A DNA stretch of 64,000 nt, from the NCBI RefSeq assembly GCF_000378505.1, contig NZ_KB899990.1:186001-250000 (forward strand), read 5' to 3'. This DNA comes from Modicisalibacter luteus DSM 23508 (lineage in GTDB: Bacteria > Pseudomonadota > Gammaproteobacteria > Pseudomonadales > Halomonadaceae). The first letter of the stretch is position 1. Each line of letters begins with the position of its first letter. A model generated the notes under the pieces. That model ran no database searches. It was given only the letters and a program-made list of their open reading frames with translations, and had not been told where the DNA came from. This document shows, piece after piece, positions 30,880 to 48,264 of the stretch. The translations under genes and the position numbers were made by a program.

Positions 30880-31602
30880 CTACCCCAGCGTTGCCAGGGA
30901 AGGAAACAAATCAACCATAACGCTGGATAAGCGGGTCATGGTCCCTGAAACGATGGCTATTCCCATAAGAATCAGGATTGTGCCGGCAATCGGACGGGTA
31001 TAGGCGCTCCATTTGCCAAGTTTCTTGCTATGGCGGCTGAGGCTGTTGATGCAGAGCGTACTTGCCAGAAAGGGCAGTGCCATTCCGGCAGAGTACATGC
31101 CCAGATAGATCATACCGTGCTGTGCATTGGCAGCATTGGAGGTGGCCATCAGAATCGCACCGAGGATGGGGCCGATACAGGGCGTCCAGCCGATAGCGAA
31201 TGCTATGCCAAACGCCGTAGCCGACAGGGGGGAACCCCCTTGGAATCTGGGATTGAACTGCAGAGTGCGCTGGAAGACTGGCAGATTGAGCAGGCCCGTC
31301 ATGAAGATCCCCAGCAAGATGACAACCGAGCCTGTAATCCAGTTGAGTTCCTGGCGGTAGCCACGCAGGAGTTGACTGAGCGAACTGGCGCCTAGCCCTA
31401 ATATAATGAATACCAGCGTAAAGCCTGTCACAAAGAAGACACTGAGTATCAGCGCTTCGACCTTCTTGTCCCGTTTGTTGACGCTGCCGCCAGTGACGAC
31501 AGAAAGATAGCCCGGCAGGAGTGGCAACGTGCAGGGAGAGAAGAAGGAGATCAACCCTCCAGCAAAAGCGCCAACCAAACCAATAGACGAGAGCGAGTCC
31601 AA
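30880..31602 (-). CDS. CcdA/DsbD-like transmembrane thiol-electron carrier (copy 1)
   Basis: The start is probably TTG 31602 behind AGGAAG, giving 240 residues that align end to end with the second copy at 40897. Longer forms to 31695 would add a non-homologous stretch. It has six hydrophobic segments, Cys24 in FFSPCTLPLLPGYL and a second Cys in IGWTPCIGPILGAIL, the redox pair that carries electrons across the inner membrane from cytoplasmic thioredoxin. It lies at the edge of the copper island, divergent from the peroxiredoxin gene. Confidence 0.88.
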   Translation of the reverse strand: MDSLSSIGLVGAFAGGLISFFSPCTLPLLPGYLSVVTGGSVNKRDKKVEALILSVFFVTGFTLVFIILGLGASSLSQLLRGYRQELNWITGSVVILLGIFMTGLLNLPVFQRTLQFNPRFQGGSPLSATAFGIAFAIGWTPCIGPILGAILMATSNAANAQHGMIYLGMYSAGMALPFLASTLCINSLSRHSKKLGKWSAYTRPIAGTILILMGIAIVSGTMTRLSSVMVDLFPSLATLG

Positions 31603-31747
31603 GCTACGACTTCCTGAGCAATGGGGAAATGCGCATCGGCCGAGCGAAATGGCTAATGGCTGCATACGCACGCTAGCATAAGACCTAAGCTCCACCCGGA
31701 GGTCAAGGGTCCCTTGGTTGCAAGGATGCTAAGCGCTGAAGGAGGGG

Positions 31748-31778
31748 TTGACCTTAAAGTTCACTTTAAGGCTATCGT
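31748..31778 (+). promoter_or_regulatory. MerR-type promoter of the peroxiredoxin-merR-copA operon
   Basis: A -35 TTGACC (31748-31753) and -10 TATCGT (31773-31778) are 19 bp apart, the long spacing typical of MerR-activated promoters. Between them lies the dyad CCTTAAAG-TTCA-CTTTAAGG (31752-31771). An almost identical promoter precedes the Met-rich gene at 38217. It is 40 bp upstream of the peroxiredoxin start. Confidence 0.85.
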
Positions 31779-31817
31779 AGGCAATGCATCATCCAACCCC
31801 AACGTAAGGATAGCGTG

Positions 31818-32450
31818 ATGACATTGCAGCTTGGAGAAGTAGCGCCCGATTTTACGGTGGCGTCCACGGAAGGCACCGTTAGCTTCCACGAGTGGCTTGG
31901 TGATAGTTGGGCCGTACTGTTTTCCCACCCGGCCGATTATACCCCTGTCTGCACGACAGAGCTTGGCGCATTTGCCAAGCGTAAGAGCGAGTTCGACAAG
32001 CGTGGCGCCAAGCTGATCGGCGTTTCCGTCGACCCACTGGAATCACATACCGGCTGGGCCAAGGATATCGAGACTACCCAAGGTGCGTCCCTCAACTATC
32101 CGCTACTGGCTGACGATGACCGAGTGGTTGCAGAGCTTTACGGGATGATTCATCCCAAGGCCGATCCCAAGGTGACAGTGCGCACCGTGTTCATCATCGA
32201 CCCCAGCAAGAAGATACGCCTGATGTTGACTTACCCGCCCAGCACCGGGCGCAACGTCGATGAGATTCTGCGTGTTATCGACTCACTTCAGCTGACCGAC
32301 ACGCACAAGGTGGCCACTCCCGTCGACTGGCAGAACGGCGAAGACGTCATTATCGTTCCCTCCCTCTCGGACGAGGAAGCCAAAGAGCGCTTTCCTGAGG
32401 GCTGGGATGAGCAGACACCGTATCTGCGTGTGGTACGCCAGCCCAGATAA
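31818..32450 (+). CDS. 1-Cys peroxiredoxin (Prx6 type)
   Basis: The 210-residue protein starts at ATG 31818, eight bases after AAGGA. The peroxidatic Cys45 lies in HPADYTPVCTTELG and is the only cysteine in the protein, so a resolving thiol must come from a partner. The long C-terminal domain with NGEDVIIVPSLSDEEA is that of the Prx6 subgroup. It reduces peroxides in the cytoplasm. Being first in the MerR-controlled copA operon suggests it handles copper-induced oxidative stress. Confidence 0.92.
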   Translation: MTLQLGEVAPDFTVASTEGTVSFHEWLGDSWAVLFSHPADYTPVCTTELGAFAKRKSEFDKRGAKLIGVSVDPLESHTGWAKDIETTQGASLNYPLLADDDRVVAELYGMIHPKADPKVTVRTVFIIDPSKKIRLMLTYPPSTGRNVDEILRVIDSLQLTDTHKVATPVDWQNGEDVIIVPSLSDEEAKERFPEGWDEQTPYLRVVRQPR

Positions 32451-32514
32451 CTTGACGAGTCGTTAGGTGGCTCAGTTGTACTGGGCCGCCCACAGTTTCG
32501 CTGAGGACATACTG

Positions 32515-32919
32515 ATGAAAACCTACAGTATCGGGCAGCTGGCCGAGCGCTGCGGCATTGCCCCTCAGGCAATTCGCTATTACGAGCAAGAGCAGCTCAT
32601 GCCGAAACCCCAGCGAACGGAGTCAAACTATCGCCGCTACCCCGAGGAGCATGTGGCTAGGTTGCAGTTCATTCTTGAGGCCAAGCAATGGGGTTTTACA
32701 CTCGACGAAATTCGCGAGTTGCTGATCCTGCAGGATGCCAACGGTGACCGGGCACAAGCCAAGCGGATTGCCGAAGAGAAGTTGACCAAAATTCGAGAAC
32801 AGATCAAACACCTTTCAAGAATCGAGTCGGTGCTTACGAAAACGCTCTCAGAGTGTTCCGGTGAGGGGCCCATGCAGGAAGGGTGTCCCATTGTCGAAGC
32901 GATCACTGACGGCAAGTAA
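32515..32919 (+). CDS. MerR-family metal-responsive regulator
   Basis: The 134-residue protein starts at ATG 32515, eight bases after GAGG. It has the MerR winged helix (YSIGQLAERCGIAPQAIRYYE), the dimer helix, and a C-terminal loop CSGEGPMQEGC placed like the metal-binding loops of CueR and ZntR. Of the ZntR-type ligands, only the C-terminal loop cysteines are evident. It lies between the peroxiredoxin and copA, so it most likely activates its own operon through the dyad at 31752-31771. A Cu(I)-class ion is likely from context. Confidence 0.88.
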   Translation: MKTYSIGQLAERCGIAPQAIRYYEQEQLMPKPQRTESNYRRYPEEHVARLQFILEAKQWGFTLDEIRELLILQDANGDRAQAKRIAEEKLTKIREQIKHLSRIESVLTKTLSECSGEGPMQEGCPIVEAITDGK

Positions 32920-33004
32920 GCCTCTCTATCCAGCCTTCTGGCCTGGCGGAACGATCGCCAGCCATCTGAGCCTTCTCAATGAGCGATGCTGTCAGGAGTT
33001 CTGC

Positions 33005-35494
33005 ATGGCCGAGCGTGTCGATATCATCATACGGGGAATGTCCTGTGCCTCTTGCGTCGGACGTGTGGAACGCGCCCTCATGAAGCAGCCGGGCGTTTCT
33101 GATGCGCAAGTGAATCTTGCGACCGAAAAGGCTACGGTTGTCTTCGAAGAGCGTGCCAACCCCAGCCAAATAGCCCATGCCGTTGAAGAGGCCGGCTACC
33201 AGCCGGTAATCGAAACCGCGGAGATTCCTATTATCGGGATGACCTGCGGTTCCTGTGTCTCGCGGGTTGAGCGCACCATCGAGAAGCTGCCAGGCATTAT
33301 CCAGTCCAGTGTGAACCTCACTACGCAAAAGGCATTCGTGCGTTTCCTGCCTGATGCGGTGACACTACCGCGCATCCAGCATGCCATTCGCGATGCCGGC
33401 TATGAGCCGCAGGATCAGACTGAGAACGCGCAGACCGAGCGAGAGGATCGGGAAGGTATCCAGCTTCGCAACAAGGTGCTGATTGCGGCTGCATTCACGA
33501 TTCCTGTCGTGATTATTGCCATGGGCAAGATGATTCCTGCGCTGGAAGCAATCTTCACCAGCATCATGCCGCACCGTGGTTGGATGGGCATCGAGTGGTT
33601 GCTGACTACCCCGGTCCAGTTCTATGCCGGGGCCCGCTTCTATCGGGCAGGCTTCGCGGAACTGCGACATGCGAACCCGGGGATGAACAGCCTGGTCATG
33701 ATCGGTTCGAGTGCCGCCTATTTCTATTCTGTGGCTGCACTCCTGATTCCCGGCTTTTTCCCGGCGGGGACCGCCGAGAGCTACTTCGAGGCGGCCGCGG
33801 TCATCGTTACCCTCATTCTACTGGGTCGCTACTTCGAGCATGTTGCCAAGGGCCGCACCTCCGAGGCGATCAAGAAGCTTCTGCAGCTACAGGCAAAGAC
33901 GGCCCGCGTTATCCGCGGCAATGACATGGTTGAAGTGCTGATCGAGGCCGTTGTTCCGGGAGACCGTATCCAGACTCGTCCAGGTGAACGTATCCCCGTC
34001 GATGGCATCGTCGAGGAGGGACACTCCTATGTCGATGAATCGATGATCAGCGGCGAGCCGGTGCCGGTTGCCAAGCAGAAAGATAGTGAGGTAGTTGGCG
34101 GAACGATCAACAAGAACGGGGCGCTGACGTTCCGTGCTGTCCGGGTCGGTACTGACACGGTGTTGTCGCAAATCGTCAAGATGGTGGAATCGGCCCAGGC
34201 GGAAAAGCCGCCGATCCAGAAGCTGGCCGACAAGATTGCTGGAATCTTCGTGCCGGTCGTACTCGTGATTGCAATGATCACGTTTGCTGTGTGGCTCGGT
34301 TTCGGCCCAACGCCCGCGCTGGCTTTCGCTTTTGTCACTACAGTCAGCGTGCTGTTGATTGCCTGTCCCTGTGCCATGGGCCTGGCGACGCCTACCGCAA
34401 TCATGGTGGGGACTGGAAAAGGGGCCGAGATGGGAGTGCTGTTTCGTAAAGGGGCAGCACTGGAGACGCTGGCCAAGGTAGACACGATCGTATTGGATAA
34501 GACCGGCACGTTGACGAGGGGACGCCCCGAACTGACGGACTTCGTTGTGCTCGAAGGGCAAGAGAATGAAGTGCTCCGATGGGTCGCCGCAGTCGAAGCG
34601 CAAAGTGAGCATCCTATTGCCGAAGCGATTGTACGTGGCGCCCAAGGTCGGGGCCTGGACCTGCCATCCATCAGCCGCTTCCAGGCTGAGCCTGGTTTTG
34701 GCATCGAAGCCGAGGTCGACGGCCATAAGCTCAATGTGGGAGCTGACCGTTATATGAGCCTGCTTGGCATTGAGCTAGGCAAGGCGGAAGGGCGTGCCGT
34801 GGCGCTTGCCAGAGAGGCCAAGAGCCCGCTGTACGCAGCAATCGATGGCAAGCTTGCAGCTATTATTGCTGTTGCCGACCCGCTCAAGGAGGGCTCGGTT
34901 GAGGCTATCGAGTCACTCAAGGCACAGGGCCTGAATGTGGCCATGCTGACCGGCGATAACCGCGCCACGGCCAAGGCTATCGCCAGGCAGGTGGGGATTC
35001 AGCAGGTGCTCGCCGAAGTGTTGCCGGATCAGAAGGCAAATGAGATCAAGCGGCTGCAGGCTGAAGGCCACAACACCGCATTCGTTGGCGATGGTATCAA
35101 CGATGCGCCGGCATTGGCGCAGGCTAACGTAGGCATTGCTATTGGCACGGGTACCGATATTGCGATTGAGGCCGGTGACGTCGTGCTCATGCGTGGCGAT
35201 CTGAGAGGCATCGTCAATGCCACGGCACTGTCCAAGCGCACCCGCAGGACGATTCTTTCCAACTTTGCCTGGGCTTATGGCTACAACGTGGCACTGATTC
35301 CGGTAGCGGCAGGTGCGTTGTATCCGTTCACCGGCTTCCTGCTCAACCCGATATTGGCGGCAGCGGCCATGAGCCTTTCCAGTATCTTCGTTCTGGCAAA
35401 TTCGCTACGACTGCGTCGCTTTCAGCCAAACAGCCCTAGGCTCCCAACAGGACCTAGGCCTGGCTCTCAAGCAAGGCAGGTGCGTCATGCCTGA
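33005..35494 (+). CDS. copA: Cu(I)-exporting P1B-type ATPase
   Basis: The 829-residue pump starts at ATG 33005, seven bases after AGGAG. Two N-terminal heavy-metal domains carry GMSCASC (Cys14, Cys17) and GMTCGSC (Cys81, Cys84). Eight membrane segments, the CPC ion site (Cys454-Cys456), phosphorylated Asp498 in DKTGT, the HP motif in SEHPIAEA and GDGINDAPAL are all present. The GYN in the seventh and MSLSS in the eighth segment mark Cu(I)/Ag(I) specificity. It exports copper from the cytoplasm to the periplasm, where the downstream redox proteins would act. Confidence 0.95.
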   Translation: MAERVDIIIRGMSCASCVGRVERALMKQPGVSDAQVNLATEKATVVFEERANPSQIAHAVEEAGYQPVIETAEIPIIGMTCGSCVSRVERTIEKLPGIIQSSVNLTTQKAFVRFLPDAVTLPRIQHAIRDAGYEPQDQTENAQTEREDREGIQLRNKVLIAAAFTIPVVIIAMGKMIPALEAIFTSIMPHRGWMGIEWLLTTPVQFYAGARFYRAGFAELRHANPGMNSLVMIGSSAAYFYSVAALLIPGFFPAGTAESYFEAAAVIVTLILLGRYFEHVAKGRTSEAIKKLLQLQAKTARVIRGNDMVEVLIEAVVPGDRIQTRPGERIPVDGIVEEGHSYVDESMISGEPVPVAKQKDSEVVGGTINKNGALTFRAVRVGTDTVLSQIVKMVESAQAEKPPIQKLADKIAGIFVPVVLVIAMITFAVWLGFGPTPALAFAFVTTVSVLLIACPCAMGLATPTAIMVGTGKGAEMGVLFRKGAALETLAKVDTIVLDKTGTLTRGRPELTDFVVLEGQENEVLRWVAAVEAQSEHPIAEAIVRGAQGRGLDLPSISRFQAEPGFGIEAEVDGHKLNVGADRYMSLLGIELGKAEGRAVALAREAKSPLYAAIDGKLAAIIAVADPLKEGSVEAIESLKAQGLNVAMLTGDNRATAKAIARQVGIQQVLAEVLPDQKANEIKRLQAEGHNTAFVGDGINDAPALAQANVGIAIGTGTDIAIEAGDVVLMRGDLRGIVNATALSKRTRRTILSNFAWAYGYNVALIPVAAGALYPFTGFLLNPILAAAAMSLSSIFVLANSLRLRRFQPNSPRLPTGPRPGSQARQVRHA

Positions 35495-35564
35495 ACAGCA
35501 ACAATGGAGTGCCTACCAAGGGCACTCATCACTGAAGTGACATTTTGAATCCGCGAGGCTATGC

Positions 35565-36104
35565 GTGAAACGCCGACTGCTGTTGCTGTTGCCTTTACTC
35601 ATCTTCCTGGGGCTGGGTTTCTTCTTCTACCGTGGTCTGGCGATGGATCCCAGTGCTCGTGATTCGGCGCTGCTGTCCCAGGAGTTTCCCACCTTTACAT
35701 TGTCAACGCTGGAAGATCCTGACGCTCGCGTCGATGAGTCGCTATTGCGGGGAGAAGTCACGTTGGTCAATGTCTGGGCCGAGTGGTGTCCTACCTGCAA
35801 GGAAGAGATGCCTCAGCTGCTAATGCTGGCCGAGCGTGGCGTCAGGCTGGTCGGTATCAATTACAAGGATACCCGGACCAAGGGGCGGGAATTTCTCGAC
35901 ACGTTCGGCAATCCTTTCGAAGTCAACATCTTCGATCCCAATGGCGACTTGGGCTTCGATCTTGGTGTATATGGCGTGCCAGAAACTTTTCTCGTCGACG
36001 CCGATGGGATCATTCACTACAAGCATACCGGGTATATCACCCCAGACGATGTCGAGAAGGTTATGCAGGAAGTTGAAAGAAGCGTTCGAGATTCGACAGG
36101 TTAA
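35565..36104 (+). CDS. Membrane-anchored TlpA/DsbE-type thioredoxin (copy 1)
   Basis: The 179-residue protein starts at GTG 35565 behind CGAGG; a nearby ATG is out of frame. An N-terminal anchor (residues 4-25) leads to a periplasmic thioredoxin fold with Cys75-Cys78 in EWCPTCKEE and the cis-Pro in YGVPETFLVD. The DsbE/CcmG family reduces periplasmic disulfides using electrons from CcdA or DsbD. No cytochrome c maturation genes are near. It sits after copA, so its target may be a copper-handling thiol protein. Confidence 0.88.
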   Translation: MKRRLLLLLPLLIFLGLGFFFYRGLAMDPSARDSALLSQEFPTFTLSTLEDPDARVDESLLRGEVTLVNVWAEWCPTCKEEMPQLLMLAERGVRLVGINYKDTRTKGREFLDTFGNPFEVNIFDPNGDLGFDLGVYGVPETFLVDADGIIHYKHTGYITPDDVEKVMQEVERSVRDSTG

Positions 36105-36238
36105 AGGCCACTCCGCTAGCGAGATTGATGCGCACCATGCTCAGCGATAGAGCGCTCTTGGTGCTGTATTCATACCGTATCCCCTCCCAAGCATAAGCCC
36201 TGCGATCAATGGGCAAGCTAATCTAAAAGGTAGGATTC

Positions 36239-37051
36239 ATGCTTCAGTATCCTTCGATCGACCCTGTAGCCATCGCTGTCGGGCCGGTGCAGGTCCATTG
36301 GTACGGCCTCATGTACGTGATCGGGTTGATAGCCGCCTGGTGGCTAGGGCGTCGTCGGGCCTCCCGCATCGGGTTGAGTCATGATGACATCGGTGACCTG
36401 ATCTTCTACGGTGCGCTCGGCATCATTGTAGGAGGTCGTGTTGGCTACGTCCTGGTCTACGGTTTTGAACAGTGGCTTGCCAATCCCATGTGGCTATTCA
36501 AGATTTGGGAAGGGGGAATGAGTTTCCATGGCGGTCTAGTTGGTGTACTGGCTGCAGCCTGGTTGTTTGCACGCAAACACCGGCTGGCTTTCTTTCAGCT
36601 GACTGACTTCATAGCACCATTAGTACCGATCGGCCTGGGCGCCGGGCGTATCGGGAATTTTATCAATCACGAATTGCCTGGCCGTGTTAGCGATGTGCCT
36701 TGGGCGATGGTATGGCCTCCCATGATGGGGTTGGGAGCAGAACCACGCCACCCTTCTGCGCTGTATGAGTTCGCTCTGGAGGGCATCGTCATGTTCATTA
36801 TCTTGTGGTGGTTTTCCAGCCGACCACGTCAGCGTGGCATGACATCCGGCCTGTTCTTGTTGCTCTACGGTGTTTTCCGCTTTGCCGTGGAGTTTGTGCG
36901 CCAACCGGACCCCCAGTTGGGGTTCATTGCTTTTGATTGGCTGACCATGGGGCAACTGCTGAGTTTACCCATGATTGCCGTCGGCTTGATCTTGATGGCC
37001 TGGGCTAGAAACCAGCCGGTAGATGATGCAAGCAAGGTAGTTACCTCATGA
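36239..37051 (+). CDS. lgt: Prolipoprotein diacylglyceryl transferase
   Basis: The 270-residue inner-membrane enzyme transfers diacylglyceryl from phosphatidylglycerol to lipobox cysteines. It has about seven hydrophobic segments, [10 protein letters not shown] near residue 21, the essential HGG motif (MSFHGGLVG near 96) and the Lgt signature [18 protein letters not shown] near residue 135. Its stop overlaps the DsbD-like gene start (ATGA), so the two are coupled. An lgt inside a metal island is probably an accessory copy; whether another exists cannot be seen here. Confidence 0.92.
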
Positions 37052-37566
37052 GAACGCACCTAAGAAAGTATCTTCTTTCCTTCATCATTGTGCTGGCTGC
37101 ATTTACCCAAACATATGCTAGCGAGACTCTGCCGCTGGGCAGTGGCAAGGCCCAGAGCTCCGAGCCCCTTTTCCTGGGCAAGTTTCTCCCGGTTAAAGAA
37201 GCCTTCCAGGCCAGGGCATGGCGAAGCGATGGAAGGCTATTCGTTGGGTTTAAGAATGCCCCCGGCTACTATCTGCATCGACACCAGTTTGCATTAGAAA
37301 GCCGCGACCCTTCAGTCAGTTTCGGCGAGTTGGAAGTTCCCCCGGGGGAGCCTGTCGATCACCCACAACTGGGCAAGATACACGTCTTCTATGACAAGGT
37401 CGTGCTCAGTGCTCCTATCGCCTCGGAAAGCGAGGATATTGGCCCGTTGACCACAATGGTGACGTTTCAGGGTTGTTCGGACGAAGGGCTCTGCTACCCA
37501 CAAGCTCAAACAGAGCTGCAGGCATTCGCTGGCTCCGCTCCTGCCACTTTTGCCTCGGGCCAATAA
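37048..37566 (+). CDS. Stand-alone DsbD N-terminal (alpha) domain protein
   Basis: The 172-residue protein has a signal peptide (residues 1-25). It then matches the immunoglobulin-like alpha domain of Dsb[11 protein letters not shown] near residue 71, [17 protein letters not shown] near 105 and a C-terminal [15 protein letters not shown] with the redox pair. In E. coli DsbD this domain receives electrons from the C-terminal thioredoxin domain and passes them to DsbC, DsbG or CcmG. Here it lacks the membrane and thioredoxin domains, which are encoded by other genes in the island. Confidence 0.88.
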
Positions 37567-37703
37567 CTACTGGGACTTGTGTGAGAGCCTATGGCCTTTA
37601 TAACGCCTCATGTCAGCTCCTATCGGTTGCAGGGCCAGTATCCGGGGCAGTGTTGACTCGCAATGCTGGCTCTACCGATAAGTGCTGCCTACGTCGGGAA
37701 GAG

Positions 37704-38120
37704 CTAAACAATGACAGGTTGAGACAAGTCGTCTAGGAGCCGGCTGACGAGATGGCCAGTAGGCAAGCCATCTGGAATATCCTGCCAAGACTCCATAGCC
37801 TGATCCATTCGCCTGGACAACGCCTGCAGTTCTTGAATGCGCGCATGGATCTGGGGAAGTTGTTCAGCCAAGGTAGCGTAAGTGTTGGGGCTGGGAGTGC
37901 CTTCCTGCATGGCCTCGGCTAGCAGGCCTCTAATTTCCCCAAGGCTGAAGCCCAGCATGCGGAAGCACTGAATAAAGCATAGCTTCCTAACTGACTCGCT
38001 GTCGTAGAGTTGATAACCATTTTGGGGATCACGATGCGGCCGTAACAAACCCTCACGTGTGTAATAGCGCACGGTTTCCGCCGTTACCCCGCCTACCTGG
38101 GCGAGTTCGCTGACTTTCAT
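37704..38120 (-). CDS. MerR-family regulator without C-terminal cysteines
   Basis: The 138-residue protein starts at ATG 38120 behind a strong GGGGAGG. The winged helix reads KVSELAQVGGVTAETVRYY and is followed by a dimerisation helix. Its only cysteines lie in KLCFIQCFRM near residue 50; the C-terminal tail ends in DLSQPVIV with no metal loop. It is divergent from the operon at 38455, whose promoter lies 100 bp away and has a MerR dyad. It may sense something other than a metal, or work beside the first MerR. Confidence 0.85.
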   Translation of the reverse strand: MKVSELAQVGGVTAETVRYYTREGLLRPHRDPQNGYQLYDSESVRKLCFIQCFRMLGFSLGEIRGLLAEAMQEGTPSPNTYATLAEQLPQIHARIQELQALSRRMDQAMESWQDIPDGLPTGHLVSRLLDDLSQPVIV

Positions 38121-38454
38121 ATGTGGCCTCCCCTGCACTGAAACCCGAAAAGTTTAGAAGGCTCGGGCCACCCCAAGGTCAAGAGGTGTTGGGTAGAAAG
38201 CGCAGGAAAGAAAGGCTTGACCTTAAAGTTACCTTTAAGGATATGGTTCATTGAAGACATGGTGGCTTGGAAAGGTGTATAGCCAATGGGTTGGCCCTTG
38301 ACCTACAGCTAGGCCATAGGTTCTAGAGTAATTCTGCTGGACTGGTAAGCGTGCACCGCCAAGAGTCACAGCCCAACAACTCTAGGCACTACACGGCGCC
38401 AAGACAGCAACATGTGAAAAACATAGCTTCGAGTCCGATACGAGGGACAACATC
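38121..38454. other. Divergent control region with long leader
   Basis: About 330 bp between the second merR and the Met-rich gene. It contains the MerR promoter and then about 200 bp of leader with no gene recognised. Confidence 0.5.
38217..38247 (+). promoter_or_regulatory. MerR-type promoter of the Met-rich/SCO1 operon
   Basis: The -35 TTGACC (38217-38222) and -10 TATGGT (38242-38247) are 19 bp apart and enclose the dyad CCTTAAAG-TTAC-CTTTAAGG (38221-38240). Arms and spacing equal those of the promoter at 31748. About 208 bp of untranslated leader separates it from the first gene at 38455. Confidence 0.85.
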
Positions 38455-38727
38455 ATGCGAAAGATACGCAACGTAATGCTCACCGCTGCCGTTATCACTG
38501 TGGGCACCTTCGGTGCAGGTTCTCTCTTCGCGCAGGAAAACGCGCAAAAAGAAGAGGCACAGCCCAACGGCATGCAAGGCAACATGATGGGCGAGGGCAA
38601 CATGATGGGTGAGGGCGGCATGCATGGAAACATGATGGGACAGATGCATTCCATGATGGAAAAGTGCAGTGCCATGATGGAGACGATGCAGCAGAAGCAG
38701 GCTGAAGAAGCCAAGACTAGCGTTTAA
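38455..38727 (+). CDS. Small secreted Met-rich, probable copper-binding protein
   Basis: The 90-residue protein has a signal peptide cleaved near residue 26 (GSLFAQ). The mature part contains repeated NMMGEG/NMMG units, MHG and MHS motifs, and one Cys in MEKCSAMMETM. At least 16 methionines in about 64 residues, plus His, is typical of periplasmic Cu(I)-binding proteins. It is the first gene after the second MerR promoter. It belongs to no named family that I recognise. Confidence 0.8.
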   Translation: MRKIRNVMLTAAVITVGTFGAGSLFAQENAQKEEAQPNGMQGNMMGEGNMMGEGGMHGNMMGQMHSMMEKCSAMMETMQQKQAEEAKTSV

Positions 38728-38734
38728 CACGCAA

Positions 38735-38766
38735 GAGGCTGCGCCATTGCGGTCTGGAGCAGCCTC
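38735..38766 (+). terminator. Intercistronic hairpin after the Met-rich gene
   Basis: GAGGCTGC (38735-38742) pairs with GCAGCCTC (38759-38766), followed by CTTTC. It lies between the Met-rich gene and SCO1 and could make the first gene more abundant by partial termination or 3' protection. Confidence 0.5.
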
Positions 38767-38798
38767 CTTTCACGCTTGGCCAAGCCGAGGAGACATAT

Positions 38799-39506
38799 AT
38801 GAGTCAAAAACGGTGTTTTCCGTTATTCGCTCTCTTTATTTTTGTCAGCTCTCCTTTGCTTGCTCACTCGCTTCAGGATGCCGAAAAAGCAATCCAAAAG
38901 CAGGAGAATTACGTACAGTTCGTTGACCGCCCAGCCCCGGAATTTTCCTTGGCTGATTCCCGCGGTAACATAGTTTCCTTAACGAATTTTCAGGATAAGG
39001 TCGTCGTACTCAACTTTATCTATACGCGATGCGCAAACGCATGTCCTCTGCATATGAACTTGCTTGCTGAGGTACAAGACCAGATTAGCGATGCGGACTT
39101 GCAGGACAACGTCGAGTTTATCACGGTTGCGACAGACACCGAAGATACCGAAGGCACACGCACCCGTTTGCAAGCCTATGTTAAGAATTTCGAGCTAGAA
39201 CCTGCCAATTGGCATTTTCTTTACCGTAATGAAACAGAGATTGCCGGAACGACGCGTCAAATTGCCGAGTCTTATGGGCTCAGGTTCGACCCTGTCGCTG
39301 ACGGTGTTCAGGCCCATGGTGTCGTTACGCATGTTATTGATCAGTCAGGGCAAATGCGGGCACGTTTCCATGGCCTTAAGTTTGAGCCGGAGCACTTGGT
39401 TTCTTACGCCAAGGTATTGGTAAAAGGCCCGGACTCCTTGTCCTATGGCGTTTGGGATAAGGTGCGTCACTATCTCGAGAATATGTCTATTTCGCTATCT
39501 AGTTAG
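38799..39506 (+). CDS. SCO1/SenC-family copper chaperone-like protein
   Basis: The 235-residue protein starts behind CGAGGAG and has a signal peptide (residues 1-22). The thioredoxin-like fold holds the copper-binding Cys78 and Cys82 in TRCANACPLH and the third ligand His near residue 173 in VVTHVIDQ. Classical SCO1 delivers copper to cytochrome oxidase CuA or keeps its cysteines reduced. Here no oxidase genes are near, so a role in copper defence or thiol reduction is more likely. Confidence 0.9.
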   Translation: MSQKRCFPLFALFIFVSSPLLAHSLQDAEKAIQKQENYVQFVDRPAPEFSLADSRGNIVSLTNFQDKVVVLNFIYTRCANACPLHMNLLAEVQDQISDADLQDNVEFITVATDTEDTEGTRTRLQAYVKNFELEPANWHFLYRNETEIAGTTRQIAESYGLRFDPVADGVQAHGVVTHVIDQSGQMRARFHGLKFEPEHLVSYAKVLVKGPDSLSYGVWDKVRHYLENMSISLSS

Positions 39507-39542
39507 CGTTGGACAAGTATTAAAACCGTTAGAGAGTTATCA

Positions 39543-39983
39543 ATGAAACACTTCAAAAAACTGGCTTTTACTGCCTTGATGGTTTTTCCCCTGTCGGGTC
39601 TTGCTGCAGAGATGTCGGCTACTCTCTACAAAAATCCGAACTGCGGATGCTGTGCCGGGCATGCCGAGTATCTTAAAGAAAACGGCTTCGATGTCGAGGT
39701 TGTAGAAACCAACGACTTGTCAAAGATTAAGGCGGAGCACAATGTTCCTGAAAAGCTTTATGGTTGTCACTCTACGCTGATCGATAACTATGCCTTCGAA
39801 GGGCATGTCAATGTCGAAAGCATCCAGCAGGTGCTGGAAGAGAAGCCTTTCATCAAAGGCTTGAGCGTACCCGGAATGCCCCTGGGATCACCGGGCATGG
39901 GAGGCGAAAAACAAGGTCCTATCGAAGTCTATACTTTGGCCTTTCAGCCAACCGATTCGCCTGAAGTTTACGCTACCTACTAA
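39543..39983 (+). CDS. DUF411 / CopG-like periplasmic copper protein
   Basis: The 146-residue protein has a signal peptide cleaved near residue 22 (GLAA). The DUF411 motif KNPNCGCCAGH holds Cys34, Cys36 and Cys37, followed by YGCHSTLID (Cys74, His75), EGHVNVESI near residue 88 and the Met-rich GMPLGSPGMGG. The family includes CopG of copper-resistance loci, described as binding a multinuclear copper cluster through such cysteines. It is third in the second MerR operon. Confidence 0.88.
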   Translation: MKHFKKLAFTALMVFPLSGLAAEMSATLYKNPNCGCCAGHAEYLKENGFDVEVVETNDLSKIKAEHNVPEKLYGCHSTLIDNYAFEGHVNVESIQQVLEEKPFIKGLSVPGMPLGSPGMGGEKQGPIEVYTLAFQPTDSPEVYATY

Positions 39984-40001
39984 CGCTAGCAATGGACAGC
40001 T

Positions 40002-40565
40002 ATGAGACTGGTTTCTTTCAAGCGAACCGTGGCAATCATGTGTCTGATGGCTGTGGCATCAACCGCTGTTGCCAGCCCCCCCCAAGGCGTCGGCCCACAA
40101 GGGTTCATGATTTGGGAAAGCCCACGCGACTTGCCTGAGTTGGCTTTCGAAGATGGCAAGGGTAAGCCACTGACCCTTGCCGATTTCCAGGGCCGGACAG
40201 TGCTGTTAAACATCTGGGCGACATGGTGCGGCCCCTGCCGTGAAGAAATGCCAACGCTGGATGCATTACAGGCTGCGTTGAGCGGGGAGGACTTCGAGGT
40301 TGTCGCCCTGTCGATCGATCGCAAGGGGATCGAGGTCGTACAGGATTTTTATGAAGACGTGGGTATCGAGCACCTTCGCCAATATATCGACACCACCGGC
40401 ATGGCCGGGGCCCAACTTGGGGCTGTGGGAATTCCGACGACGTTATTGATAGACCCCCATGGGAACGAGATCGGGCGCCTAGTAGGGGCAACAGAATGGG
40501 ACAGCCCGGAAATGACCGAGTTTCTCAAAGAAACCATTCGACTTTCGAAAGAGGCATCACTATGA
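40002..40565 (+). CDS. TlpA-type periplasmic thioredoxin (copy 2)
   Basis: The 187-residue protein has a signal peptide or anchor (residues 8-25) and a TlpA thioredoxin domain with Cys76-Cys79 in TWCGPCREE and the cis-Pro in GIPTTLLIDP. TlpA-like proteins reduce SCO1-type copper chaperones and other periplasmic disulfides. It lies between the DUF411 gene and the second CcdA, its likely electron donor. The stop overlaps the next start (ATGA). Confidence 0.9.
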   Translation: MRLVSFKRTVAIMCLMAVASTAVASPPQGVGPQGFMIWESPRDLPELAFEDGKGKPLTLADFQGRTVLLNIWATWCGPCREEMPTLDALQAALSGEDFEVVALSIDRKGIEVVQDFYEDVGIEHLRQYIDTTGMAGAQLGAVGIPTTLLIDPHGNEIGRLVGATEWDSPEMTEFLKETIRLSKEASL

Positions 40566-40882
40566 ACTGCTGTGGCGGAAACAAATCTAATCAAGGTCAA
40601 GAGCACTCGGGGTTGAAAAGCTTGGTGTCAGGCCCGCGTCGCTTGTGGATCCTGGGTGCTGTAATCGTGGCCGGTGGCCTCGCCATGGGGTGGGATCAAC
40701 TGGTCATACTTGGCATTGCCCCGATGCTGGTGACTCTCTTGCCGTGTCTGCTCATGTGTGGAGTGATGTGCCTGATGAACTGCAAGAAGGACAAGAAAGA
40801 CGAGTCTGCTACAAAGAGTGAAGCGGTAACGCAGCAGGCCCACGCTGAGGGGGCTCCTGCATCCTCCAAGGAAACGGTCTAG
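40562..40882 (+). CDS. Small Cys/Met-rich membrane protein
   Basis: From ATG 40562, overlapping the TlpA stop, the product is 106 residues. It starts with MNCCGG, has two hydrophobic segments (about residues 30-47 and 48-75), and the second segment is packed with Cys and Met (LLPCLLMCGVMCLMNC), followed by a Lys/Asp-rich tail. It loosely recalls the small DUF2933 membrane proteins of metal-resistance loci. A role in moving or binding Cu(I) in the membrane is an inference from composition and context. Confidence 0.7.
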   Translation: MNCCGGNKSNQGQEHSGLKSLVSGPRRLWILGAVIVAGGLAMGWDQLVILGIAPMLVTLLPCLLMCGVMCLMNCKKDKKDESATKSEAVTQQAHAEGAPASSKETV

Positions 40883-40896
40883 CACACAGCTGAAGC

Positions 40897-41640
40897 ATGC
40901 TCGAAGTCGCCAACATTGGCCTGCTGACGGCGTTTCTAGCAGGCCTGATCTCTTTTGTCTCTCCTTGTGTCCTGCCACTGGTGCCCGGCTACCTCTCCTT
41001 CGTGGCCGGGCGCTCGCTGGGTCAGATTCAGGAGGCGAATCGGCATGAGCGACTCAGGGTACTGACCCAGTCGATATGGTTCGTGCTTGGGTTCTCCACG
41101 ATATTTCTAATTCTGGGAGCCAGCGCCACGGCTATTGGTCGCTTACTCCTGACCTACCGTCAGGAAGCGAACCTAATAGGCGGCGTCATTGTTATCCTGT
41201 TTGGAACATTGATGACCGGCATGCTTCCGCTGCAGTGGCTGCAACGGGAGTGGCGCTTCATAGGAAGGCTCAAGGATGAAGGTGGCGGTCCCGGCGCAGC
41301 TTATCTGCTAGGCGTCGCTTTCGCGTTCGGCTGGACGCCCTGTATCGGCCCTATTCTGGGCGCTATCCTTACCGTTAGCGCTTCGACAGCTAACGTCTCT
41401 AGTGGCTTGGCGCTTCTCGCTGTTTATTCGCTGGGCCTTGGTATTCCTTTTCTTCTCACGGCCATCTCGCTTGATCGATTCCTTCAGCATCAAAAGCTTT
41501 TGCGTCGCTGGGGGCGGCCCATGCATATCATGGCGGGCCTCATCATGGTAGGCATGGGTGGTTTGATGGTCACCGGACAGCTGACCGCGTTGTCCTACTG
41601 GCTCTTGGCGACATTCCCTGCACTAGGCTCCATTGGTTGA
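40897..41640 (+). CDS. CcdA/DsbD-like transmembrane thiol-electron carrier (copy 2)
   Basis: The 247-residue inner-membrane protein has six hydrophobic segments, Cys24 in FVSPCVLPLVPGYL and a second redox Cys in FGWTPCIGPILGAIL. It aligns with copy 1 at 30880 along its length. It would carry electrons from cytoplasmic thioredoxin to the periplasmic TlpA/DsbE and DsbD-alpha proteins of the island. It lies 14 bp after the Cys-rich membrane protein gene. Confidence 0.92.
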   Translation: MLEVANIGLLTAFLAGLISFVSPCVLPLVPGYLSFVAGRSLGQIQEANRHERLRVLTQSIWFVLGFSTIFLILGASATAIGRLLLTYRQEANLIGGVIVILFGTLMTGMLPLQWLQREWRFIGRLKDEGGGPGAAYLLGVAFAFGWTPCIGPILGAILTVSASTANVSSGLALLAVYSLGLGIPFLLTAISLDRFLQHQKLLRRWGRPMHIMAGLIMVGMGGLMVTGQLTALSYWLLATFPALGSIG

Positions 41641-41659
41641 CATACTTCAAGGACATTTT

Positions 41660-42526
41660 ATGCGCAAAACAGTGAACCACTTCTTACGTGCCGTATCGTT
41701 GGCAGGTTTCGCGATGGCCAGCCTGAGCGCAGCGGGTGGGGTGATGGCTGCCGAGACAGTGCTTCCTTCGCTGAGTTATGACCAGGCAGGCAATCGGTTG
41801 CTCAAAGTGGAGGACAACGGGCTTTCGCAGAGCGAGAACGGTGGCAAGACTTGGCAGGAAATCGCTCTACCGGCTGTCGCAGAGAAGGGAACGTTAATGA
41901 CGGCGGCTGCGACGGCAGAGGACGGTAATGTGCTTTATATTGCCGGCCCCGTTATTGGGGTGCAGCGTAGCGAAGACAATGGTGAATCCTGGCAAGCCCT
42001 TAACGATGGCTTGCCCAGCCAGAACGCCATTGCCCTTGCGGTTCATCGTAATCAGCCGGAAACGCTGTATACCGTGATAGCTGACGATGGACTCTATCAG
42101 AGCGATGACGCTGGCAAGACGTGGAAGAAAATGGACAGCGGACCGACCCAGACCATACGGCGCCTCGTACACTCCGATATGGAAGGCAGCATGCAAACCG
42201 GTTGGCTCTATGCAGTTTCTGACGATGCTGTACGCCTCTCCATGGACTGTTTCTGTGGGTGGCGCCTGAGCGGTGATCTCGATGCTGGCAAGGTCTATGA
42301 CGTGACATACGACGTCAATGCACCTCAACAGGTTTTCGTGAGTGCAGAGCAGGGCCTGTTCCGTAGCGATAATGGCGGCCAACAATGGCAGCCGGTAGCC
42401 AGTGAGGGCGAAGATAAAGTGGCGCTGGCCCTGACACCAGAGGGAACGCTCTATGCCTTGGATGCAGAAGGCGAACTCATGCGCAGCGAAGATCAGGGCG
42501 AAACCTGGACAGAATCCGATGAGTAA
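41660..42526 (+). CDS. Secreted BNR/Asp-box repeat protein
   Basis: From ATG 41660, behind AAGGACA, the protein is 288 residues with a signal peptide cleaved near residue 31 (GVMAAE). At least five Asp-box motifs follow: SENGGKTW, SEDNGESW, SDDAGKTW, SDNGGQQW and SEDQGETW. These mark a six- or seven-bladed beta-propeller of the sialidase/sortilin/Ycf48 kind. A Cys pair, MDCFCGW, sits near residue 195. Similar propellers occur in metal islands with unknown role; sialidase activity is unlikely. It is last in the operon. Confidence 0.82.
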   Translation: MRKTVNHFLRAVSLAGFAMASLSAAGGVMAAETVLPSLSYDQAGNRLLKVEDNGLSQSENGGKTWQEIALPAVAEKGTLMTAAATAEDGNVLYIAGPVIGVQRSEDNGESWQALNDGLPSQNAIALAVHRNQPETLYTVIADDGLYQSDDAGKTWKKMDSGPTQTIRRLVHSDMEGSMQTGWLYAVSDDAVRLSMDCFCGWRLSGDLDAGKVYDVTYDVNAPQQVFVSAEQGLFRSDNGGQQWQPVASEGEDKVALALTPEGTLYALDAEGELMRSEDQGETWTESDE

Positions 42527-45319: not shown

Positions 45320-46000
45320 TCAGGCTTCGCCGGGGCCAGGCTGGTGGCGGGGCGTTGGCATCAACTGGTCGAACACTGCCATCTGCTCGTCACTCAGGAC
45401 GTCGCCCATGGCTTGGCGATGCTGTTTCCGCAGGGCCTGGAAGGCCTCGCGCTTGGCCGTACGAGTGTCGAAAGACTGGTCGCGAAGTGCCTTGGCCTCG
45501 GCCATGAATTGCTCGCGCGCGTTGGCCAGTTCGGTACGCTGTGCGTCGCTCAGCCCCCAGCTGGTGTAAAGGGAGTCGATGAGGTCAACCATGCGCTTAT
45601 GCGGCATCCTGGCGCCGTGACCGTGATCCTTGTTCCGCTTGCCATGATCGAAGCCTGGTCCGCGGTCGGAATCGGGACCGGGGTGTTGCATGGCATGCAG
45701 TGCCTTCAACTGGTCTTCATCGAGAATCTCGGCCAGGCGCTGCTCATGCTGTTTGCGCAGGGCTTGGCGCTGATCGCGGTATTCCTGCTGGGCCTGCTTG
45801 AAAGCGTCGCGCTGGCTGTCATCCAGATTCCAGCTATCGAACAGGGCTTCCACACGGTCATGCGGCCCGAAGGGCTGGGCCAGGTGGGACTCAGCCTTTG
45901 ACGCGTGCGGGGCGTCACTAGGCGAGGCGCTGGCCAGCTGAATGGTACCGGCGGAAAGCAGCGCGGCCAGGAGCAGGGCGGAAGATGTCGGTCGTTTCAT
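45320..46000 (-). CDS. Spy/CpxP-like periplasmic chaperone, tandem LTxxQ repeat
   Basis: The 226-residue protein has a signal peptide cleaved near residue 26 (LASASP). The mature part holds two related helical units, each with a DSWNLDDSQRDAF- or TSWGLSDAQRTEL-type LTxxQ segment, an RKQHEQRLAEIL- or RKQHRQAMGDVL-type helix and a D/EDQL or DEQM end. A His/Gly/Asp-rich linker (HGKRNKDHGHG) joins them and could bind metal. Spy and CpxP are about 160 residues with one such unit per chain, so this looks like a tandem fusion of the dimer. It ends the BaeSR-like operon. Confidence 0.82.
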   Translation of the reverse strand: MKRPTSSALLLAALLSAGTIQLASASPSDAPHASKAESHLAQPFGPHDRVEALFDSWNLDDSQRDAFKQAQQEYRDQRQALRKQHEQRLAEILDEDQLKALHAMQHPGPDSDRGPGFDHGKRNKDHGHGARMPHKRMVDLIDSLYTSWGLSDAQRTELANAREQFMAEAKALRDQSFDTRTAKREAFQALRKQHRQAMGDVLSDEQMAVFDQLMPTPRHQPGPGEA

Positions 46001-46115
46001 GACGGTGTCTCCTTTGAGTGGACACTGTCAGTATCGACGGGGGGCGTGCAGGAAAGGTGAAGCGAATCGACAGACTTTGCGTATTGGCGTGCACATTGTG
46101 TGCACGCTGGCTACC

Positions 46116-46820
46116 TCACTCCTCGGGCTGGTATTTATAGCCCACGCCATAAACCGAGCGAATGATCTCCCGATCGGGCCATATATCGGCTATCTTGCGG
46201 CGCAATTTCTTGACGTGACTGTCTACAGTGCGTTCGGAAACGATGCGGTGATCCCGATACATATGATCCATCAACTGATCCCGGGAAAAGATTCGTCCCG
46301 GTGAGGCCATCATTACCTTGAGCAACTGGAACTCGACGGCGGTCAGTTCAATGTCTCGCCCGTCGGCCAGCGCACGCCAGCCATCGTGATCAAGGGTCAG
46401 CTGATTTAAAGACCCGCTCTGCTGGGGTTCCTGCTCGGGAGCGCGAGCACGGCGCAACACGGCCTTGACCCTGGCGACCACCTCGCGCGGGCTGAACGGC
46501 TTGCAGATATAGTCGTCGGCACCCAGCTCCAATCCGAGCAGGCGGTCGACCTCCTCGACACGGGCCGTCAGCATAATGACGGGCAGGGTAGGCCACTGCT
46601 GACGAATCTGCCGACACAGGCTCAGTCCATCGGTGCCGGGCAACATCAGATCCAGCAGCACCAGTACCGGCTGGGTGCCTTCGGATCGGTCCTGCAACCA
46701 TGGCATGACGTCGTCGCCATGGGCGAGGTGATGGGGTATGTAGCCGTTGCCGGACAGGTAATCGGCAATCACGCGGGCGATCTTTGGTTCGTCTTCTACG
46801 ATCAGAATGTGCTCACTCAC
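46116..46820 (-). CDS. OmpR-family response regulator (BaeR-like)
   Basis: The 234-residue protein starts at GTG 46820 behind AGGAGAA. The receiver domain has Asp10-Glu11, phospho-acceptor Asp57 (LLDLMLPGTDG) and a conserved Lys in YICKPFSP. The C-terminal winged helix (ELTAVEFQLLKVM near residue 160, VDSHVKKLRRKI near 205) binds DNA. Length and motifs match BaeR. It lies 10 bp after its kinase gene and would control envelope-stress genes, including the adjacent pump and Spy-like gene. Confidence 0.92.
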   Translation of the reverse strand: MSEHILIVEDEPKIARVIADYLSGNGYIPHHLAHGDDVMPWLQDRSEGTQPVLVLLDLMLPGTDGLSLCRQIRQQWPTLPVIMLTARVEEVDRLLGLELGADDYICKPFSPREVVARVKAVLRRARAPEQEPQQSGSLNQLTLDHDGWRALADGRDIELTAVEFQLLKVMMASPGRIFSRDQLMDHMYRDHRIVSERTVDSHVKKLRRKIADIWPDREIIRSVYGVGYKYQPEE

Positions 46821-46830
46821 TTCGGTTCTC

Positions 46831-48264
46831 CTATTCCCCTGTCAGGGGGAATTTCAGCGTCCAGCATAGGCCGCCCAGTGTCGAGTGCGATACCTGCATG
46901 TCGCCCCCGTGGGCCCGGACCAACGCCATCGCGATGGATAGTCCCAGCCCGCTTCCCCCAAGGCGGCGGTTACGCGAGGCCTCGACCCGGTAAAGACGCT
47001 CGGTCAGGCGAGGAAGTTCATCGTCTTCGACACCCGGTGCACTATCTTCCCAGCGAATACGCACCTGGTGACCAATCACGTCCAGGCTGACCCGCAAATG
47101 TCCCGGCGCATCGGTATAGGCGCGGGTATTGCCTAGCAGATTATTCCATAGCTGATGCAGGCGCTGCAGGTCGCCCCTGACGGGCGCGGGGCCGTGCATG
47201 GTCAGGTCGAGAGTGATGCCGGCGCCTTCCAGCCAGCCGCGAGCATCTTCCAAACGTTCACCAAGTGCCTTGGCAAGGTCCAGATTTTCCAGGCGTACGT
47301 CCAAAGCGCCGGCATCGCTTTGCGCGAGTAGACGCAAGTCCTGAACCAGTCGCTCCAACTGGCCGACCTCCTGAGCCAAAGAGCCCAGGCTGTCGGCATC
47401 CAAGGGGCGGATTCCGTCTTGCATCGCTTCGATTTCGCCATGCAGTACGGCCAATGGGGTGCGTAGCTCGTGGGCGATATCCGCTACCCAGCGTTGGCGA
47501 GCCTGACGGTTGGCTTCCAGCGTCTCGGCCAGAACATTGAAATCATGGGCCAAGCGTGAGAGTTCATCATGGCCTCGTTCGGCAAGACGCACGCTGTAGT
47601 CACCTTCGGTCAGGCGACGAGTCGCCAGTGCCATGCCCCGCGTGCGCCGGCCCAGCCACCAGCTCAGCACACCGGCCAGCAACAAGGACGCCAGCGCCAG
47701 AGAACCCACAATGATCGACAGGTTGCGCTGCTGGCGTTCGATAAAAATGCGGTCCATGCGGGCCATGAGTTCGCGCGGGGGCCGGTAGACCAGCTCGCCG
47801 ACCTGTTGACCCTGGCTGACGATAGGCAGGATGCGTAGCGGATCGTGCCGTCCACGCTCGCGAGTTCGGGCATCGTCATCATCGCGGCGCGGCGGACCGA
47901 TGACCACATTACCTTGGGCATCACGTACCTGAAAGTCACGCGGATCGCCGAGTTGCCGCTGAAGGCCCGGTGGCGGTCGCTCCCGGTCGGGCCAGAGCTG
48001 GCGATGAACCAGCCGGAACCAGGCCCGCTCGTTATCCTGTAGCCACTGCCAGCCGCCACGCGCTGACCACTCTTCTCCCAGTGCGGTAGCCAGTGTCTCG
48101 GCACGCTGGGTCTGTGCGCGTTCCAGATAGTCGATGAATCCCTGGTCCAGGCTGCGCGAAACGAACAGAAAGATCAGGGCGCTGGTCAGCACGTTGACGA
48201 TCAGGATCGTCGCGAACAACTTGAGTCCAAGTCGCGACACAGCAGGCTTGGCAAAACGCGTCAT
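46831..48264 (-). CDS. Sensor histidine kinase (BaeS-like)
   Basis: The 477-residue inner-membrane kinase has a membrane segment at residues 13-35, a periplasmic domain of about 150 residues rich in Arg/Asp (PPRRDDDDARTRERGR), a second segment near 185-208, a HAMP domain, the H box with phospho-His265 in DIAHELRTPL, and an ATPase domain with LWNNLLGNTRAY and RLGGSGLGLSIAM. The layout matches BaeS and CpxA. Its start overlaps the RND gene stop (ATGA), so it is co-translated with the pump. Confidence 0.92.
   Translation of the reverse strand: MTRFAKPAVSRLGLKLFATILIVNVLTSALIFLFVSRSLDQGFIDYLERAQTQRAETLATALGEEWSARGGWQWLQDNERAWFRLVHRQLWPDRERPPPGLQRQLGDPRDFQVRDAQGNVVIGPPRRDDDDARTRERGRHDPLRILPIVSQGQQVGELVYRPPRELMARMDRIFIERQQRNLSIIVGSLALASLLLAGVLSWWLGRRTRGMALATRRLTEGDYSVRLAERGHDELSRLAHDFNVLAETLEANRQARQRWVADIAHELRTPLAVLHGEIEAMQDGIRPLDADSLGSLAQEVGQLERLVQDLRLLAQSDAGALDVRLENLDLAKALGERLEDARGWLEGAGITLDLTMHGPAPVRGDLQRLHQLWNNLLGNTRAYTDAPGHLRVSLDVIGHQVRIRWEDSAPGVEDDELPRLTERLYRVEASRNRRLGGSGLGLSIAMALVRAHGGDMQVSHSTLGGLCWTLKFPLTGE

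Follow-up and report, generated by a model that had tools for sequence, protein, structure and literature searches.

The window, that is, the whole stretch of 64,000 nucleotides analyzed from Modicisalibacter luteus DSM 23508, contains a copper island at positions 30880 to 42526, where the gene of a Cu(I)-exporting ATPase is interleaved with genes for membrane and periplasmic thiol chemistry, for copper proteins and for lipoprotein maturation. The parts, their active-site cysteines, the twin operators, the conserved gene order, the plasmid copies and the recurrence in other genomes described below are read from sequence. Genomes (G), loci (L) and contigs (C) are cited by working labels where they have to be told apart.

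Table 1. Genes and operators of the copper island, with positions in the window and family scores in bits.
Feature	Position	Strand	Evidence
CcdA1, stand-alone DsbD_TM membrane thiol-electron transporter	30880..31695	-	PF02683 73.6 bits, cut-off 27.1; divergent from peroxiredoxin gene
MerR-type operator/promoter 1	31748..31775	+	TTGACC, 19-bp (base-pair) spacer with dyad, TATCGT
Peroxiredoxin (AhpC/TSA with 1-cysPrx_C)	31815..32450	+	PF00578, PF10417; no strong hydrophobic segment by hydropathy
MerR1, metal-type MerR regulator	32515..32919	+	PF13411, PF09278; C114-x9-C124 loop
CopA, Cu(I) P1B-type ATPase, two HMA domains	33005..35494	+	TIGR01511 621 bits, cut-off 397
DsbE/CcmG-type membrane-anchored thioredoxin, WCPTC	35565..36104	+	TIGR00385 167.6 bits, cut-off 123.15; Pfam Redoxin
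Lgt, prolipoprotein diacylglyceryl transferase	36239..37051	+	TIGR00544 272.5 bits, cut-off 118.9
Free-standing DsbD alpha (N-terminal) domain, 172 amino acids	37048..37566	+	PF11412 78.4 bits, cut-off 25
MerR2, MerR-family regulator	37704..38138	-	PF13411; without C-terminal Cys loop
MerR-type operator/promoter 2	38217..38244	+	same motif as operator 1
Met-rich small peptide, hydrophobic N-terminus	38455..38727	+	no Pfam or NCBIfam family
SCO1/SenC-like protein	38799..39506	+	PF02630 51.6 bits; CxxxC and distal His
CopG (DUF411) periplasmic copper protein	39543..39983	+	PF04214 72.6 bits; CxCC and distal Cys
TlpA-type periplasmic thioredoxin, WCGPC	40002..40565	+	PF08534
CysM, Cys-rich membrane peptide	40562..40882	+	no named family; PC-x3-C-x3-C core
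CcdA2, stand-alone DsbD_TM membrane thiol-electron transporter	40897..41640	+	PF02683 71.3 bits, cut-off 27.1
BNR/YCF48-like beta-propeller, invariant CFC motif	41660..42526	+	PF15902, PF14870

As shown in Table 1, the parts that a first-pass annotation of this DNA had listed are present: the free alpha domain, two CcdA-like proteins, CopA, SCO1, the DUF411/CopG protein, the Met-rich peptide and the Cys-rich membrane peptide, the named families being confirmed by Pfam. That list was incomplete, because the peroxiredoxin and Lgt had been omitted, and the Cys-rich membrane peptide, here called CysM, most likely starts at 40562, not at 40496. CopA passes the Cu-ATPase subfamily cut-off given in Table 1 and lies below that of the narrower CopA equivalog NF007952 (719.8 against 1316). 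In the alignments, C78 and C82 of the SCO protein are invariant (8 members), as are C197 and C199 of the BNR/YCF48-like protein (15 members). Rfam gave 0 matches, and a generic promoter scan was uninformative (4 sites against 6.6 expected).

The island recurs among the relatives of the organism. In a sample of 201 Halomonadaceae genomes, where the DsbD_N figures are a minimum among the matches listed, a free DsbD_N protein occurs in at least 20 genomes at 21 loci (frames of 169 to 187 amino acids), all of which outscore the first fused protein listed. CysM occurs in 25 of the 201, namely in 19 of the 20 genomes with a free DsbD_N and in 6 of the 181 without it; the Fisher p value of 1.7e-20 is too small because of relatedness and transfer. 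The lone genome with a free DsbD_N and without CysM, G113, is cut by a contig end. The usual gene order is CcdA1, peroxiredoxin, MerR1, CopA, a 42-amino-acid peptide, DsbG, TVP38, DsbE, Lgt, alpha domain and DsbD_2, followed by MerR2, the Met-rich peptide, SCO or not, DUF411, TlpA, CysM, CcdA2, the YCF48-like protein and cytochrome c.

The relatives' counts refer to 20 loci from 19 genomes and are lowered by losses at contig ends, which cut at least 5 of the loci. Lgt, DUF411, TlpA, CysM, CcdA2, MerR2 and the Met-rich peptide were each found in 19 loci, DsbE, the YCF48-like protein and cytochrome c in 18, DsbD_2 in 17, CopA in 16, DsbG and MerR1 in 15, CcdA1 in 13, peroxiredoxin in 11 and SCO in 10. 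L087 was counted as the same plasmid as L006 (HAL1) and L100 as the same genome as G096, and the alpha proteins of L072 to L075 are near-identical. The window copy is without the 42-amino-acid peptide, DsbG, TVP38, DsbD_2 and cytochrome c. On plasmids of Halomonas KO116 and HAL1 the island is flanked by insertion sequence (IS) genes; the island is therefore read as mobile, and the copy in the window as a reduced version of it. A further copy, L007 on the Vreelandella sulfidaeris plasmid AP019515, is in many frames throughout, perhaps through sequencing error or decay.

The two MerR promoters proposed in the first-pass annotation correspond to a single motif, TTGACCTTAAAGTTnnCTTTAAGGnTAT, at 31748 and 38217. 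The motif was derived from these very two window sites, and none of 100 window shuffles matched it at up to 3 mismatches. MerR promoters have a 19-bp gap between their hexamers, as TTGACCTTAAAGTTnnCTTTAAGGnTAT does. A copy of the operator lies on the side of MerR2 and the Met-rich peptide in 20 of 20 relatives' loci and beside CcdA1 in all 13 loci that hold CcdA1, and at the same threshold none was found in 826,676 bases of control loci. It is absent from the 12 non-Halomonadaceae loci scanned for the motif, so that control by a common operator has to date been seen in Halomonadaceae only. Because of the conserved order, the shared operators and the co-occurrence, a chance mixture of genes was rejected, and the co-conservation within Halomonadaceae is strong.

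The loop cysteines C114 and C124 of MerR1 are invariant (13 members). MerR2 has no such loop, and its sole invariant cysteine is C58 (15 members). Since L076 keeps both operators without a MerR2 match and the cysteine loop is in MerR1 only, MerR1 is the likelier controller of both operators. Its scores for the metal-specific families were about equal and passed no cut-off (ZntR 114.6 against 143, MerR 114.4 against 150.85, CueR 106.9 against 147.4), which would agree with a broad defence against soft metals or oxidants (Hg, Ag, Au, Cd) instead of copper. The surroundings of island genes on two plasmids point the same way: CcdA1 and the peroxiredoxin adjoin a mer operon on the THAF12 plasmid, and cadR and a cation transporter adjoin the KO116 island. 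However, CopA passes the Cu-ATPase subfamily cut-off, the DUF411 protein is CopG-like, and copC and copD stand behind the alpha-less G091 locus (L182:10725-11979), which makes the broad defence quite an unlikely explanation.

The first-pass annotation had described the island as a DsbD pathway split into separate proteins. The alpha protein carries the cysteine pair C143/C149 and an N-terminus that looks like a signal peptide by eye, and its family profile matches the solved nDsbD structures 1jpe (E 6.7e-29) and 3pfu (E about 7e-29). The two fused DsbD proteins of the genome consist of DsbD_N, DsbD_TM and a Thioredoxin_7 gamma domain, and no match to this gamma domain was found in any scanned island protein. 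The thioredoxin part was said to be present twice, as TlpA and DsbE; both proteins exist, but they are Redoxin/AhpC-TSA proteins and not the Thioredoxin_7 gamma domain. In 17 of the 20 relatives' loci the gene of a DsbD_2 membrane protein stands directly behind the alpha gene, and this partner is absent in the window. In KO116 the alpha stop codon abuts the start of that next gene, whose product is annotated as the sulfite exporter TauE/SafE and matches Pfam DsbD_2 with 184 bits; in L006/L087 the DsbD_2 gene is split into two frames. In the window's genome, DsbD_2 was found only beside FixS/CcoS and a P-type ATPase, barring weaker matches within the fused DsbD proteins. The alpha and membrane parts are separate proteins as proposed, and the island is only in part a split DsbD, not literally so.

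A free DsbD_N is not unique to the copper island, since other Gammaproteobacteria also have one (L091, L092, L093 and L096). Its neighbours there are, by eye, groEL, cutA, aroQ or accBC, and in L092 and L096 it stands beside a TlpA-like gene. Matches on Pseudomonas plasmids were rejected as free alpha domains, the proteins being 573 amino acids long. A fourth DsbD_N match in the window's genome (G000:C1:393855, L004) lies at the C-terminal end of a long protein, a 781-amino-acid frame without a DsbD_TM match, and was rejected as ScsB because it reads as another kind of protein.

The membrane step is represented by CcdA1, where C55 and C173 lie within CcdA motifs recognized by eye, and CcdA2, where C24 and C149 are invariant; these are the sole two stand-alone DsbD_TM matches of the genome. 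That CcdA2 is an ordinary ccdA product was rejected, because none of the CysM-linked CcdA2 proteins falls within the branch formed by 44 CcdA proteins of the chromosomal type. The island CcdA2 falls in the copper-linked part of the CcdA tree, which has 6 label changes against 25.4 when the labels are shuffled. The CysM-linked CcdA2 proteins are not a single clade, and the window's CcdA1 sits on a long branch of unsure placement. The island DsbE is a paralogue of the ccm-operon copy at G000:C1, where the ccm locus has its own CcmG and CcmF, and no ccm genes were found among the island proteins scanned. The closest NCBIfam family of the island TlpA is rhizobial TlpA, with 165.2 bits against a cut-off of 230.

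At sensible scores, neither Pfam nor NCBIfam has a family that CysM matches. Residues W44, G51, P54, P61, C62, M65, C66 and C70 are invariant in 19 members, with a core of P-C-x2-M-C-x3-C, and a long hydrophobic stretch at about residues 30 to 75 is read as two membrane segments. The DUF411 protein aligns to the solved chain 6wis (E 6.5e-19) with an invariant CxCC, its Met pair being assigned by this alignment only; the protein of this chain is named CopG (PMC7558416, PMC8456105), and CopG is reported to bind a tetranuclear Cu cluster (PMC7558416). When CysM was used as the anchor, it was found in 6 of 369 Gammaproteobacteria and in 9 of 398 genomes of the phylum, both counts including the window's genome. 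Eleven further CysM-anchored loci from 9 genomes, some of them on short contigs and cut by contig ends, hold DUF411 in 10 cases, TlpA in 4, peroxiredoxin in 4, CcdA2 in 3, Lgt in 2 and the alpha domain in none. CopG is accordingly the firmest partner of CysM. In L191-L194 (G371, G478), from one gammaproteobacterial genus, CopG and CysM stand beside a peroxiredoxin, and one genome has three CysM copies.

Outside Halomonadaceae, the recurrence was followed through CcdA2. The best 80 loci from a scan of named genomes were reduced to 76 by removing four Halomonadaceae loci, and CysM was found within about 9 kilobases in 16 of the 76. These 16 loci (and, in brackets, the 60 without CysM) hold TlpA in 16 (2), DUF411 in 14 (4), DsbE-like proteins in 14 (2), SCO in 13 (1), multicopper oxidase in 13 (0), cytochrome c in 11 (0), CopA in 10 (9), TM173 in 10 (1), ScsC in 6 (3), the YCF48-like protein in 2 (0), Lgt in 0 (1) and the alpha domain in none of either group; the ScsC and TM173 profiles were built from two sequences each, one of them from L097. 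The 16 loci belong to alpha- and gammaproteobacteria (Mesorhizobium, Martelella, Roseovarius, Sulfitobacter, Granulosicoccus, a metagenome-assembled genome of Acidiferrobacteraceae and others), and several Roseobacter loci are near-copies. The set of CopG, CysM, TlpA, SCO and CcdA2 recurs in these two classes without the alpha domain. The conservation across proteobacteria suggested in the first-pass annotation thus holds for part of the set; the alpha domain is absent in the modules scanned (0 of 76 CcdA2 loci, 0 of 11 CysM loci), except that the gammaproteobacterial contig L097 carries a free alpha domain with a partial TlpA, a DsbA/ScsC-like protein, CysM and CcdA2. The betaproteobacterial loci L109 and L110 hold CcdA2, DUF411 and a DsbE-like protein without CysM.

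The composition of these wider modules bears on the possibility that the island serves cuproenzyme assembly and not detoxification, where SCO, DsbE, TlpA and CcdA, together with the cytochrome c and multicopper oxidase of relatives, would metallate or fold respiratory or laccase-type enzymes. SCO and TlpA are described as oxidase assembly factors elsewhere (PMC6696091), and the multicopper oxidase and c-type cytochrome counts of the 16 modules, like the cytochrome c in 18 of 20 relatives' loci, would suit such a function. In contrast, no oxidase or multicopper oxidase was found among the scanned island proteins, and none by a multicopper-oxidase profile in window positions 25001-46000. The genome moreover encodes CcmG and CcmF in its ccm locus and has the DsbD_2 gene beside FixS/CcoS, and export is suggested by CopA and by a MerR of the metal type. 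Assembly is accordingly a rather unlikely purpose of the island.

Lgt and alpha genes are neighbours in 19 of the 20 relatives' loci. A further full-length copy lies at C2:51247 in the window's genome, so that the island copy is the second, and all 10 other genomes tested (eight Halomonadaceae and the two genomes of the CysM loci L190 and L193) have at least one Lgt beyond the copper-locus copy, with three in all in G047. In Escherichia coli, copper is reported to mirror Lgt depletion, which was ascribed to its action on the lipobox cysteine (PMC6538781, PMC6593411). A spare Lgt in a copper island would fit this effect. The window's genome also encodes two TlpA proteins that include an incomplete Lgt-like membrane part. 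The first lies on C4 in a run of DsbD, this TlpA and a DsbG/C-type protein (L203:3453-6918), and the second Lgt-like/TlpA fusion lies on C15 (L204:2295-3092). Because of these fusions, one of which stands between DsbD and a DsbG/C-type gene, the position of Lgt beside DsbE may have a structural rather than an enzymatic reason. Genes of lipoprotein maturation, lspA and lnt, were also seen in cation-efflux modules next to or near island pieces (L071:439-5075 and L011:2917-4664 on plasmid THAF12); with the island lgt, all three steps of lipoprotein maturation occur on metal elements.

Among the known systems, ScsABCD of Salmonella, Proteus and Caulobacter shares with the island a DsbD-alpha domain, a CcdA-type membrane step, thioredoxin partners and a tie to copper, which in the island is provided by CopA, CopG and SCO as judged from their families. 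The likeness extends in relatives to DsbG (15 of 20 loci) or to an ScsC with the ScsC_N copper-resistance domain that adjoins CcdA2 (Mesorhizobium L106). However, ScsB is a single alpha-beta-gamma protein (PMC8900818), whereas the island has a separate 172-amino-acid alpha protein and separate CcdA proteins without a Thioredoxin_7 gamma domain, and the window copy has neither ScsC nor DsbG (no profile match in window positions 25001-46000). With DsbD and its partners DsbC/DsbG and CcmG, the island shares the alpha family and its cysteine pair, the CcmG-type DsbE being a likely client; DsbD is a three-part fusion, and the island parts are separate and copper-linked. The CcdA/CcmG relay is matched by two stand-alone DsbD_TM proteins with two membrane cysteines each, but no ccm genes stand alongside.

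In Bradyrhizobium, TlpA is reported to reduce ScoI in oxidase assembly (PMC6696091). The island resembles this relay in that TlpA and an SCO with CxxxC share one gene cluster; it differs in being an efflux island with CopG and CysM, and in its TlpA, which lies below the rhizobial equivalog cut-off. The CopG/CutG loci (cutFOG and the cop islands) likewise combine DUF411 with CopA or multicopper oxidase, but the parts of PMC8456105 and PMC7558416 consulted here name no CcdA, TlpA, CysM or Lgt companions. In the open-licence literature, as covered by titles and the beginnings of abstracts, no description of the island gene set was found, which does not show its absence from print. The favoured view is that the island acts in the manner of Scs and of the TlpA-ScoI relay, without being assigned to either.

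Taken as a whole, the island more probably than otherwise couples Cu(I) export with periplasmic thiol reduction and the rescue of lipobox cysteines, the single steps being less certain than this general reading. A rise of copper in the cytoplasm, the presumed inducer, would most likely act through MerR1 to open both operators, and CopA would export Cu(I) while the envelope genes are expressed simultaneously. The copper reaching the periplasm would bind or oxidize protein thiols. CcdA1 and CcdA2 would then pass electrons, presumably outward, from the thioredoxin of the cytoplasm to TlpA and DsbE, and possibly to the free alpha domain as well, and these may re-reduce the copper-binding cysteines of SCO, CopG and, in the relatives having it, DsbG, although which reductase serves which client is a supposition. 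The extra Lgt could help lipoprotein maturation to continue while copper competes for the lipobox cysteine. The island enzymes would thus probably keep sulfur-containing proteins of the envelope working under copper attack. The first-pass reading is supported in part, namely in its list of parts and in the co-conservation, and fails in its wording as a split DsbD; a periplasmic system that keeps copper-binding thiols reduced during CopA export would be the presumed function.

Several observations weigh against this coupling of export and thiol repair. The alpha domain is broken or missing in 6 of the 25 Halomonadaceae genomes with CysM: the gene is in two frames in G051, G083 and G110 and truncated in G043, and no alpha domain turned up in the stretches of sequence examined for G091 and G119. 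Since CysM is kept in all six of these loci and DUF411 in five, the alpha domain is dispensable. As TlpA and CcdA2 occur in only 4 and 3 of the 11 CysM-anchored loci, the thiol relay is a frequent but non-obligate partner, and 10 of the 20 relatives' loci lack SCO. MerR1 passes no metal-specific cut-off, so that copper is only a presumed inducer, no lipobox protein was noticed by eye among the island proteins, and the counts overstate independence because several loci are near-copies.

The same decay of the alpha gene, which in G114 also seems by eye to have lost its start next to a transposase-like frame, could suggest a patchwork of a resistance island, whose genes were brought together by mobility and do not form a functioning thiol relay, the alpha domain being a decaying leftover. 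The genes lacking in the window copy and the IS genes flanking the plasmid copies would agree with this. On the other side stand the fixed gene order, the stop-start junction of the alpha and DsbD_2 genes in KO116, the twin operators and the intact cysteine pairs, and also the redox replacement in G091. There, another redox set occupies the slot behind Lgt, made up of a redoxin, a membrane protein that resembles CcdA (hhalign probability 85, without a Pfam match) and a pyridine-nucleotide disulphide oxidoreductase, which is read as a swap of one thiol-electron supply for another; the replacement supports the role of the slot, not the alpha domain itself. A mere patchwork is therefore unlikely.

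Beyond the coupling of export with thiol reduction, a more specific proposal may be put forward tentatively, namely that the island is an operon devoted to copper-thiol maintenance. A single regulon under metal control would comprise an efflux pump and periplasmic thiol repair, the second Lgt would keep lipobox cysteines acylated under copper, CysM would work with CopG, and the alpha domain would be an exchangeable adaptor between the membrane reductases and their isomerase or copper-protein clients.

In the window, an LTXXQ (Spy/CpxP-like) periplasmic protein stands beside an apparent two-component system close downstream of the island, at 45320-48264.

The toxicity of copper in the envelope is largely thiol chemistry, yet descriptions of copper resistance loci usually centre on pumps and oxidases. 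The island suggests joint selection of a copper pump with thiol repair and lipoprotein maturation, and it offers a testable natural case for the blocking of Lgt by copper. It also draws attention to the unnamed CysM family, whose link with CopG is seen in both alpha- and gammaproteobacteria.

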